Assembly: GCF_014075995.1 (NCBI RefSeq)
Contig: NZ_CP055153.1
Span: 5,766,001-5,830,000 of the forward strand
DNA length: 64,000 bases
Reading direction: 5' to 3'
Source: Adhaeribacter radiodurans
GTDB lineage: Bacteria; Bacteroidota; Bacteroidia; Cytophagales; Hymenobacteraceae
Shown here: positions 46,714 to 50,597 of the stretch, in pieces
How the letters are laid out: the number at the start of each line of letters is the position of its first letter
Position numbering within the stretch: position 1 is the stretch's first letter
Notes under the pieces: model-generated
The model's input: only the letters and a program-made list of their open reading frames with translations
Databases searched by the model: none
Told to the model about the DNA's origin: nothing
Position numbers and translations under genes: made by a program

Positions 46714-47904
46714 TTACTTTAACACTCCTAGTTCTTTTCCTACTTCCGTGAAAGCCTGAATAGCTTTGTCCAGGTGTTCTTGGGTGTGCGAGGCCGATAA
46801 CTGGACCCGAATCCGGGCTTTGCCCTGGGGCACGACCGGGTAATAAAAACCAATTACGTAAATGCCTTTATCCAGCAAACGAACCGCAAATTCCTGCGCT
46901 AGTTTGGCTTCGTAAAGCATAATAGGCACAATAGGGTGTTCGCCCGGGCGAATATCAAAACCAGCGGCCGTCATTTTTTCGCGGAAGTATTGGGTATTCC
47001 ATTCCAGTTTATCACGCAACTCGGTAGTTTCGGAAAGCATATCGAGCACAGCAATAGAAGCACCTACAATAGCCGGCATAAGGGAATTAGAAAACAAATA
47101 AGGGCGCGAACGTTGGCGCAGCATCTGAATAATTTCTTTCCGGCCCGAGGTAAATCCTCCCATAGCTCCGCCCAAAGCTTTTCCTAAAGTACCGGTAATA
47201 ATATCAATCCGCCCCATCACGTTGCGGTACTCGTGCGTTCCGCGGCCGGTTTTACCAATAAACCCTGAAGAGTGGCTTTCATCTACCATTACCAGAGCTT
47301 TATACTGATCAGCCAGGTCGCAGATTTTATCAAGTTGGGCAATCGTACCATCCATGGAAAAAGAACCATCGGTTACAATAATACAGTGTTTGGCAGATTG
47401 TGCTTCTTGCAATTTTGCTTCCAGATCAGCCATGTCGTTATGGTTATACCGCAAACGTTGCGCCTTACACAAACGCACCCCATCAATAATAGAAGCATGG
47501 TTTAAAGCATCAGAAATAATTGCAGAATCTTCGCCGAAAAGCGGTTCAAAAACGCCCCCATTGGCATCGAAAGCAGCGGCGTATAAAATAGTATCTTCGG
47601 TACCTAAAAACTCGGCTAGTTTACGTTCCAGTTCTTTGTGAATATCCTGGGTGCCGCAAATAAAACGTACCGACGATAAACCGTAACCGTGCGTATCAAT
47701 GGTGCGCTTAGCCGCTTCAATCACCGCCGGATGCGACGATAAGCCCAGGTAATTATTCGCGCAAAAATTTAGTACTTCTTTCCCCTCCGAAGTTTCGATA
47801 GCCGCTCCCTGCGGAGTAGTGATAATGCGTTCTTTTTTATATAAACCGGCTTCTTCTATTTCCGTGAGTTGTTTTTCCAGGTCAGGCTTTAACGTTTCGT
47901 ACAT
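46714..47904 (-). CDS. kbl: Glycine C-acetyltransferase (2-amino-3-ketobutyrate CoA ligase)
   Basis: PLP enzyme of threonine breakdown that converts 2-amino-3-ketobutyrate and CoA to glycine and acetyl-CoA. From the ATG at 47904 it has 396 aa, like the E. coli enzyme. The PLP lysine is K242 in [13 protein letters not shown]208 and H211 lie in VDESHSSGF, and H136 in DALNHASII. The longer frame from 47979 adds 25 residues not found in the family. It sits 52 nt downstream of the Pro/Arg-repeat gene and in the same direction. The dehydrogenase that makes its substrate is encoded divergently at 49629, so the two enzymes form a complete threonine-to-glycine route. Confidence 0.95.
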
Positions 47905-47956
47905 AGCACTTTGCTTGTTCTTGGTTTTAAAATATGTATAAGCAACAGGTAATTCG

Positions 47957-49435
47957 CTATTCTGTTTCGGGTTTACCAAGAGGAGTTTCCGTAGATGGCC
48001 CCGACGGAGCAGGCCGCTTAAAAATAGGGCGTGGCCGGGGAGGTTTCGAAACTATTGGTACCTCTGTTGACTCTGGAGCCGGGATTATAGCAGCAGAATC
48101 AGACTCATTTACCGGCTGTTGCTGGCCTTTATTTTCTAAATTATTAATTTCCTGCTCCGTATTCAGGGTATCAGGCACCTTCTCCGTTAAGGATTCTGTC
48201 TCCGAAGATTTAGTAGAAGTTGTCGGGCGTTCTATTATTGGCCTGGGCCGGGGGAACTTAGGCTTTTCCGGTTCCGGCATTAGTTCCGGATTGTTTTCTG
48301 CGGTTGGTTCAGGAGTAGCTTCCGCTGCATTTTGCTCTGGACTTGCCGCACCTGGACGCTTAAATATAGGTCGTGGCCTTGGCGGTTTTACCGGTTCAGG
48401 AGTTATTTCAATTGGCTTTTCCGTTGCTGAATCGACCGGTCTGTTTTCTGGTATAGCCGCCGGTGAAGAAACTTCCTCTTTATTTATATCTCCTGAAGTA
48501 GCAGTGGCTGGTCGTTTAAATATTGGCCGTGGCCATGGTGGCTTAGTAGCCTCGGGAATTACATCATCTGATTTTTCTTCTGCTACAATTACCTGATTAT
48601 CTGCCAGATTATCCGCTAAAACTTGGGTTTCCGGCATTGGAGTTGTTATTTCTGTTTCATCGGGAACCGTTGCTGGAGTTGGTCGCTTAAATACAGGCCG
48701 TGGTCGGGGCGGTTTAGGCGTAGCATCCGGGTCCGGGTTACTGTGCACCGGCAAGGACATAGCATTGCCATCAGAGGAAGCTTCGTTCTTCGTTTCCGCT
48801 TCTGGTGTTTGAGTAGGAGTAGCAGGCTTTCGAAAAACGGGACGGGGCCGCGGTGGTTTAGCGGCTTCTGCGGCAGTAATACTTTCTTCGGGAGCAGTAG
48901 GTGGCTGGTTATTTGATTCCGATTCGGCGCTAGAACTGGCAGGCGTTTCCGCAACTGGCCGTTTAAATACAGGTCGGGCCCGGCCTGGTTTTAGTGCTTC
49001 CGGCGTATTTACCTGGCTTTCGGTAGGCAATGGCTTTTCCTGAGGCTGTTCTTTTTCTTCGGGTACAGCTGACTCCGTTACAGGTGGCCGGCGTATAACT
49101 GCCCGGCCCCGCGGGGCAGGCGCTAGTTCCGGGGTACGATCCACGGAGGGCGAAGGCTCATCCGGTATGGCAGAGGCAGTGTTAGGAACCGTTCCAGTAG
49201 CACGCCGCATAACTGGTTTTGCAGTAGCAGTAATTGTAACCGTTGCTGGTTTGGGCACTTCTTCTAACCAAAACTGGCGGCGCACATCGTTAATAATCAT
49301 TTTTACCGCTGTATAAAACGTATTCGGGTGAACCTGCTCGTATAGCGTTCGCCAGGCTGCATATCTTTCCGGATCGCCGGCGGCAAATGCGGCTACGTTA
49401 ATACGGCGTTTGGTCAGATCATCCTCAAAAGTCAT
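47957..49435 (-). CDS. Pro/Arg-motif repeat protein of unknown function
   Basis: A 492-aa protein with no signal peptide. The N-terminal 60 residues look globular ([21 protein letters not shown], then [19 protein letters not shown]). Everything after them is low-complexity. Seven clear copies of a motif around [12 protein letters not shown] occur near residues 159, 202, 248, 308, 358, 400 and 473, with two degenerate copies near 77 and 115. The motifs are strongly basic and the linkers between them (about 25-60 residues) are acidic and rich in Glu, Pro, Ser and Thr, so charge alternates along the chain. It is probably disordered and cytoplasmic, perhaps binding a repeated partner. I know no characterised relative. 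It is transcribed with kbl (52-nt gap). The long frame on the opposite strand is a mirror of the repeats, not a gene. Confidence 0.65.
48000..49130. repeat. In-gene repeat array encoding Pro/Arg motifs
   Basis: About eight degenerate 33-36-bp units (near 48013, 48229, 48354, 48507, 48681, 48827, 48957 and 49086), spaced 125-216 bp apart, all in one frame. They encode the repeated motif. They are coding repeats, not CRISPR, because the spacing is uneven and the units vary. Confidence 0.7.
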
Positions 49436-49628
49436 ACGCTTTGGTAATAGGTATAAAAAAAGTAAATTTTCTTTAACGATTGAATGGCGTTACCGGTTAA
49501 ATCCGGCTTGCACATTATTTTGAGTAAAAATCGTACTCTTTGCAAAGATATTAAATCAGAACTAACTTTGAACGCGGCTGTGGTCAGCAGTTTTCTTAAC
49601 CCAAGGCTTCTTGATTCAAAAACGTAAC

Positions 49629-50597
49629 ATGATCCCCACTAAAGAGAAGATTTTAGTTATTGGTGCTTGCGGCCAATTAGGCTCCGAACTCACCTTAGAA
49701 TTACGGAAGATTTACGGCGATGCCCAGGTAGTTGCGGCCGATATTTCTCTACCTAGACAAAACGAATTAGTTGAATCAGGTCCATTTGAAATTCTGGATG
49801 TGCTGGATCGTCATCATTTAGCTGACCTGGCTTATAAGCATGAATTTACGCAAATTTACCACTTAGCGGCTGTCTTATCGGCTACCGGCGAAAAACGGCC
49901 CAAGTTTACCTGGAAGGTTAACATGAAAGGTTTAGAAAATATTCTGGACCTGACTTTAGAAAAAGGAATTGCGAAAGTATACTGGCCCAGCTCTATTGCG
50001 GTTTTCGGCCCGAATACTCCCCGCCACCACACGCCGCAACACACCATTACAGACCCCAATACCGTGTATGGCATTAGTAAACTAACCGGCGAACGGTTCT
50101 GCGAATACTATGCTACCCGCTATAAGTTAGACATAAGAAGTTTGCGCTATCCGGGTTTAATTAGTTACAAAGCACTACCGGGCGGAGGCACTACCGATTA
50201 TGCAGTAGATATTTACTATAAAGCAGTAGAAGAAGTTCCGTTTGAATGTTATCTGGCGGAACATACTTATTTGCCCATGATGTACATGCCCGATGCTTTA
50301 AAAGCCACCCTGGAGTTGATGCATGCGCCCGCCGAAAATATAAAAATACGGTCGTCGTATAATTTAACGGCAATGAGCTTTTCACCCGCCGAAATTGCCA
50401 CTTCTATTCAAGAACATATTCCGGATTTTAAAATTATGTATAAGCCCGATTACCGCCAGCAAATTGCCGCTTCCTGGCCTGAATCTATTGACGATTCTGC
50501 CGCCCAAAAAGATTGGAATTGGCAACCTGATTATGATTTGCCCCGCATGACCCAGGATATGTTGACGAACCTCCGGAAACAAAAAGCGGGCCTTTAA
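49629..50597 (+). CDS. L-threonine 3-dehydrogenase, SDR/epimerase type
   Basis: A 322-aa NAD-dependent enzyme of the extended short-chain dehydrogenase family. It has the glycine motif GACGQLG (about 12-18), the catalytic tyrosine and lysine YGISK (about 140-150) and the serine of WPSSIAVFG ahead of it. This type oxidises L-threonine to 2-amino-3-ketobutyrate in several Bacteroidota, and kbl, the next enzyme, lies next door, which makes the assignment good. A generic epimerase remains the alternative. I start at the ATG at 49629. The stop codon sits in the loop of its own terminator hairpin. Confidence 0.85.
   Translation: MIPTKEKILVIGACGQLGSELTLELRKIYGDAQVVAADISLPRQNELVESGPFEILDVLDRHHLADLAYKHEFTQIYHLAAVLSATGEKRPKFTWKVNMKGLENILDLTLEKGIAKVYWPSSIAVFGPNTPRHHTPQHTITDPNTVYGISKLTGERFCEYYATRYKLDIRSLRYPGLISYKALPGGGTTDYAVDIYYKAVEEVPFECYLAEHTYLPMMYMPDALKATLELMHAPAENIKIRSSYNLTAMSFSPAEIATSIQEHIPDFKIMYKPDYRQQIAASWPESIDDSAAQKDWNWQPDYDLPRMTQDMLTNLRKQKAGL

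Follow-up and report, generated by a model that had tools for sequence, protein, structure and literature searches.

What does a protein built from repeated basic, proline-rich motifs in acidic linkers do between kbl and the gene for L-threonine dehydrogenase, and are its motifs kept by selection or left over from random repeat expansion? The locus lies in a 64,000-nucleotide stretch of the Adhaeribacter radiodurans genome (the window, to which the coordinates in Table 1 refer), and an earlier note, made from its letters, had read the protein as a multivalent binding array. To our knowledge, few descriptions exist of bacterial proteins in which one selected short motif is present many times.

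Layout of the gene and its product

The position claimed for the gene in the earlier note, between kbl and the threonine dehydrogenase gene and reading with kbl, is correct: kbl follows on the same strand after 52 bp, and the dehydrogenase gene is divergent (Table 1). The dehydrogenase falls below every NCBIfam cut-off and matches solved L-threonine dehydrogenases. Two promoter-like sequences were scored against TAnnTTTG, which we take to be the promoter consensus; that of the motif-array gene, TATCTTTG, is weak because no TTG was found at a spacing of 15–23 from it. A 220-aa open reading frame with GRGxGG-like repeats (47934–48596, forward strand) mirrors the tail of the motif-array gene in antisense and is very probably no gene in its own right.

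Table 1. Features of the locus, in order of position in the window
Feature	Position	Strand	Basis or remark
kbl (glycine C-acetyltransferase), neighbour outside the proposed mechanism	46714..47904	-	TIGR01822, E 1.1e-209, above NCBIfam cut-off
Motif-array protein gene	47957..49435	-	492-aa ORF, ATG start
Disordered tail (~430 aa), basic Pro motifs in acidic linkers	47960..49255	-	model and charge counts
Motif copy 7, C-terminal	48011..48046	-	12-residue match
Motif copy 6	48224..48259	-	12-residue match
Motif copy 5	48353..48388	-	12-residue match
Motif copy 4	48509..48544	-	12-residue match
Motif copy 3	48680..48715	-	12-residue match
Motif copy 2	48824..48859	-	12-residue match; RK order
Motif copy 1	48956..48991	-	12-residue match
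Degenerate copy, aa 106-117	49085..49120	-	read from alignment
Degenerate copy KPVMRRA, aa 73-79	49199..49219	-	conserved residues in alignment
N-terminal ~60-aa helical head domain, family-defining	49256..49435	-	profile matches and structure model
Promoter-like TATCTTTG for motif-array gene	49543..49550	-	pattern TAnnTTTG; weak
Promoter-like TAACTTTG for tdh	49563..49570	+	TTG 20 bp upstream
L-threonine dehydrogenase, epimerase-like type, divergent neighbour	49629..50597	+	2yy7, E 1.7e-123

Within the protein, a 12-residue motif resembling KPPRPRP[VI]FKRP recurs in seven copies, beginning at residues 149, 193, 241, 298, 350, 393 and 464 and spaced 43–71 residues apart, where 20,000 shuffles of the tail gave at most one copy (mean 0.003). 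Motif stretches hold 33 K/R and 1 D/E in 84 residues and linkers 20 K/R and 63 D/E in 346; reading frame, copy positions and charge counts thus agree with the seven copies in acidic linkers first described. The small globular N-terminus is likewise borne out in prediction, the head being modelled as four helices with a pLDDT of 88.6 and a pTM of 0.67. In the full-length model secondary structure is absent past about residue 60 and pLDDT is below 50 in 322 of the 492 residues, with motif blocks tending to less disorder than linkers and the last copy reaching a mean pLDDT of up to 71.

Searches for known relatives returned little. The window protein matched 0 families in Pfam, NCBIfam, PHROGs and PADLOC, and a scan of 21 head sequences gave single-member matches only (best E 0.045 in Pfam, 0.022 in NCBIfam). 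Foldseek comparison of the predicted head yielded no significant match in the PDB (three hits, E 5.3 or worse) or among the viral models of BFVD (12 hits, E 5.0 or worse), and the best E for its sequence profile against the PDB was 0.11; the fold may have relatives that the PDB and viral-model searches did not detect. The motif peptide matched none of the PDB chains of at least 20 residues. A literature search found no article containing any of six motif strings, and one joining proline-rich repeats to threonine enzymes found nothing. A second carrier of the motif in the genus was considered and rejected: a degenerate DNA pattern, which misses some codon combinations, gave 34 matches in eight Adhaeribacter genomes, of which 29 fall in this gene; the other five are no evidence, given that the reversed pattern gave 38 in the same genomes. 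A narrower pattern gave five matches in the protein's own genome, all in this gene, and none in its control.

Motifs are conserved while linkers drift

Rates of change were compared in four close Adhaeribacter, four other Adhaeribacter and 18 hand-picked loci out of 38 named Pontibacter loci. Amino-acid identity was 0.90 in motifs vs 0.385 in linkers in the first set, 0.93 vs 0.46 in the second and 0.84 vs 0.42 in Pontibacter; the corresponding dN values were 0.067 vs 0.549, 0.048 vs 0.498 and 0.137 vs 0.534. Divergence is thus lower in motifs by about eight- and tenfold in the two Adhaeribacter sets and about fourfold in the 18 Pontibacter, where the gap is smaller, the linker figures being inflated by the alignment error that they include. 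Ratios of dN to dS (motif 0.037, linker 0.359 and head 0.09 in the close Adhaeribacter; motif 0.031 and linker 0.223 in the others; 0.049 and 0.238 in Pontibacter) are rough, as dS is near saturation in both zones, and dN is relied on instead. In this first test motif columns had been defined by the presence of the motif. The comparison was repeated with motif columns taken from the window protein alone, divergence measured among the other species only, and gap-free columns; identity was then 0.935 in motifs vs 0.396 in linkers (L002–L004), and 0.931 vs 0.466 in the second Adhaeribacter set.

The motifs are under selection while the linkers drift. This was the check that the earlier note had proposed for its claim of selection rather than random expansion, and the claim stands: the rates differ in both Adhaeribacter sets and in Pontibacter, and the equal rates that would have spoken for expansion were not seen. 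Individual copies also have histories of their own. Copy 2 has RK where most other copies have KR, a mark kept in seven of eight Adhaeribacter, copy 5 is missing from six of the seven other Adhaeribacter proteins aligned, and synonymous codons differ among the copies of the window protein; because such marks are kept between species and the codons differ within the protein, the Adhaeribacter copies must be old and have not been homogenised. Of the two degenerate copies, KPVMRRA has its P74, R77, R78 and A79 conserved at 90% or more among 21 aligned sequences, the window protein and 20 relatives, and that at residues 106–117 has a gap at its place in the four Adhaeribacter of the other set. One linker element (LPxHSNPDP-like; residues 228–236, window 48728–48754, reverse strand) is kept in eight Adhaeribacter although the rest of the linker sequence drifts, and may be a second, different motif.

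That the array is low-complexity repeat expansion devoid of function is accordingly of almost negligible probability. In favour of that reading, units near-identical together with their linkers in L048 and L149–L153 show recent duplication; against it stand the motif and linker rates in Adhaeribacter and Pontibacter and the codon-diverged copies.

A head family with and without motifs

Profile A1, built for the head, had matches in 96 of the 148 genomes sampled from the order, and 95 of these have a single one. Across the phylum only 12 of 395 genomes matched, so that Bacteroidota as a whole do not share the head; seven of the 12 belong to f22, one family outside the order. In the genomes sampled, the head defines a family not previously described, with members in Cytophagales and in one other family of Bacteroidota. 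Searching Cytophagales with the N-terminus, as the earlier note had suggested, placed the gene in 32 of 59 relatives by single-sequence search, among them all eight genomes searched in the genus and members of other genera, with some genera of the same family lacking it; absence from close relatives, which together with a lack of expression would have told against the array according to that note, was not seen. In that search it was not found in any of 14 genomes of g4 and g5, two genera of the family that we take to be Hymenobacter, and the head profile likewise found none in the nine g5 genomes listed; since those 14 do without it, the gene is dispensable. One head-type protein, annotated as hypothetical, is encoded on a 602-kb Bernardetia plasmid (L169:3977-4183), with a DCC-family oxidoreductase gene on one side and lhgO on the other.

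The 150 loci collected encode 123 distinct proteins, which fall by the number of residues after residue 58 into 34 head-only (fewer than 15), 19 short-tailed (15–59) and 70 long-tailed (60 or more). Across lineages the shared core is [KR]P[VI][FIMV]K. It is present in 0 of the 34 head-only proteins, 12 of the 19 short-tailed (the other seven lack it as written) and 62 of the 70 long-tailed, whose tails average 6.4 copies vs 0.05 once each tail is shuffled, a comparison that controls composition and not the choice of the regular expression, made after the sequences had been seen. The 34 head-only proteins show that the head does not need the motif. A lenient pattern counts between 0 and 15 copies, giving a valence series of 0, 1, 3 and on up to 15, and the family as a whole forms a series from the head alone, through the head with one C-terminal motif of the [KR]P[VI][FIMV]K type (Chryseolinea L127, ending in KPKPVFKPKPKMS, and L027, ending in KPVFKRPS), to arrays. 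In 73 of 74 motif-bearing proteins the last core ends 3–22 residues before the C-terminus; in the remaining one it ends at 66.

The repeat itself varies among lineages. The five f18 array proteins have R-P-V-[IFM]-K as their core, with basic residues or proline after it, and eight of the 70 long-tailed proteins have different repeats in place of the core, namely G-F-K-P-R-F in seven f22 proteins and KPKIPG in one from f16. In the f16 genome concerned (L020/L048), the KPKIPG tail, with its near-identical linkers, sits on the same type of head. Families f5, f18 and f20 each contain members with and without arrays; arrays have therefore been gained or lost several times. A tree of the head (97 rows and 60 columns; of 39 Pontibacter-type loci, named or uncultured, every fifth was kept) shows seven or more switches between the array and non-array states, but its topology is poorly resolved, with 52 of the 94 inner branches open.

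Linkage to threonine genes

The order tdh< gene> kbl recurs in Adhaeribacter, Pontibacter, Chryseolinea, Chryseosolibacter, Marivirga and two Cyclobacteriaceae/Flammeovirgaceae metagenome-assembled genomes, often with two genes of the opposite strand downstream: a cdaA-type gene, one representative of which is named by NCBIfam, and another that we recognised by eye as folP-type. A tdh gene lies near 58 of 70 long-tailed, 15 of 19 short-tailed and three of 34 head-only genes, counts that are lower bounds as some loci span only 3 kb. In f22 the order is tdh, yebC, gene in all seven loci (L031–L037), with one yebC representative named by NCBIfam. YebC is reported to aid ribosomes through proline-rich stretches (PMC12234827); a link of the family to polyproline translation through YebC was considered for f22 and set aside, as many tails contain no PP.

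The widely kept order, and the linkage of most tail-bearing loci, would suit a scaffold that clusters threonine dehydrogenase with Kbl and channels 2-amino-3-ketobutyrate between them. Against this, the A. aquaticus genome G004 keeps six motifs with neither enzyme; a threonine dehydrogenase match at E 1e-40 was found in none of 13 long-tail genomes chosen for lacking or unknown linkage, and four of the 13 had no Kbl match at 1e-60 either, although each query matches 49 of 59 relatives at limits stricter than these. Two of the nine Kbl matches in those genomes are only 38–39% identical. Conversely, tdh and kbl are adjacent in G012, G013, G029 and G033, and the head was found neither there nor elsewhere in the genome. 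As arrays occur without the enzymes and the enzymes without the gene, the gene is not part of the threonine pathway in general; such a scaffold is refuted as a general function, and we hold it to be very improbable. The linkage of tails to tdh and kbl is best read as inherited order, an old synteny that carries no requirement for the array.

Where tdh and kbl are close in g4 and g5, the interval holds other genes or none at all. In g5 genomes (L132, L135–L138 and perhaps L131) the place of the motif-array gene is taken by a gene that we judged by eye to be patatin-like. One Adhaeribacter kbl match (G006:C1:3577602-3578726) begins at query residue 22 and is interrupted by a stop within the region searched.

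What the motif may bind

A logo of 378 copies from 52 distinct Hymenobacteraceae proteins was anchored on Pro-hydrophobic-hydrophobic-[KRE], so that conservation at the proline (position 0) and the hydrophobic pair is built in. Arginine and lysine are sorted by position: Arg 92% and Lys 5% at -1, Arg 92% and Lys 4% at +4, and Lys 68% and Arg 29% at +3, with proline at 85% at -2 and 93% at +5. Generic charge would not separate arginine from lysine by position, and the preference argues for a defined receptor pocket over charge alone. Acidic residues make up 0.000–0.012 of the motif 12-mers, a figure to which only five of the twelve positions contribute freely, the others being set by the pattern, and linkers are net-negative in all six sets.

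Repeated short motifs in disordered tails, conserved while their linkers drift, are also the layout of eukaryotic multivalent short-linear-motif scaffolds, whose motifs are ligands of SH3 or WW domains. SH3 ligands follow the patterns [RK]xxPxxP or PxxPx[RK]. Here, by contrast, the protein is bacterial, and by eye neither pattern occurs in the consensus 12-mer KPPRPRP[VI]FKRP taken alone. The earlier note had likened the motif to SH3 ligands and to ribosome-binding peptides. In composition the likeness is real; it does not extend beyond that, the shared core not being PPRPRP.

The second half of that comparison raises the possibility that the motifs act on the ribosome exit tunnel in the manner of proline-rich antimicrobial peptides such as oncocin, Bac7 and apidaecin, with which they share Arg-Pro richness and a PRPRP-like composition. 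The placing of a motif near the C-terminus in nearly all motif-bearing proteins would fit this too. Those peptides are free, short and of animal origin, whereas here six of seven motifs are internal to a 492-aa bacterial chain, and internal copies would not be expected to enter the tunnel as free peptides do; moreover, the last residues vary and the cross-family core lacks PRPRP. We rate an action on the tunnel as highly unlikely.

A more serious competitor is an RNA-binding, condensate-forming tail, in which the basic motifs would be charge stickers for RNA and the acidic linkers would regulate them. Bacteroidota offer a precedent: in the disordered region of Bacteroides Rho, according to PMC13269538, coacervation with RNA is driven by short positive motifs, under the regulation of a negative one. 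The protein shares with B. thetaiotaomicron Rho, as portrayed there, its phylum and a disordered region with short, conserved motifs of opposing charge, a layout found here as positive motifs with net-negative segments in six of six sets and predicted disorder. BtRho is a termination factor, whereas this protein joins a 60-aa head to a repeated Pro/hydrophobic motif, and the likeness is one of layout. The FKPRF and KPKIPG tails are still basic and proline-containing in character, as stickers would be. The conserved prolines, the V/I-F pair and the position-specific choice of arginine or lysine nevertheless exceed what charge would need. RNA coacervation is placed second because of the Rho precedent, and is in our judgement possible, if on balance unlikely.

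It could also be supposed that each motif, a hydrophobic pair with basic flanks, docks DnaK, and that the tail recruits or titrates the chaperone. DnaK sites are hydrophobic cores with positive flanks in which acidic residues are disfavoured, and its substrate domain binds some proline-rich peptides (PMC8215388). The motif has the basic flanks and a two-residue V/I-F core, and lacks the leucine for which the same text gives DnaK a strong preference; in PMC8864165, the most hydrophilic of the Arg/Pro-rich analogues of ARV-1502 failed to bind DnaK. A DnaK-docking array is improbable.

A proposed multivalent docking adaptor

A specific protein receptor is judged most likely because the constraint is residue-specific, and "multivalent binding array" is the best reading of the tail, one drawn from conservation and layout, in which binding, partner and role are all conjectural. 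The explanation that we prefer, with about an even chance of being right, is that the protein is a cytoplasmic adaptor whose tail docks a receptor multivalently. No signal peptide is visible by eye in the protein, which would accord with a cytoplasmic location. The four-helix head would hold one partner or an assembly site, and the long, flexible, acidic tail would carry repeats of one short linear motif, which reads (K-P-P-)R-P-R-P-[VI]-[FI]-K-R-P in this protein and [KR]-P-[VI]-[FIMV]-[KR] across its relatives. Every motif would dock the same kind of site, presumably an acidic surface beside a hydrophobic groove on a folded protein; if all copies bind the same receptor, the strength of binding would be set by their number. 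The acidic linkers may keep the motifs apart and soluble, and possibly weakly autoinhibited. Against the adaptor speak the head-only members, a copy number ranging from 0 to 15, the dispensability of the gene and the motif variants of f22 and f16.

A wider proposal, which we advance more tentatively and think somewhat more likely to be wrong than right, is that the family is one of hubs, in which a single ancestral C-terminal motif was amplified several times independently, to at most about 15 copies, tuning avidity for one conserved cytoplasmic receptor. If true, this would give the bacterial family a layout better known from eukaryotic scaffolds. Its head domain represents a previously undescribed family and occurs in 96 of the 148 genomes sampled from the order. 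Because valence varies naturally on one type of head, and there are several array lineages as well as losses, the effect of motif number would be directly testable once the receptor is found.
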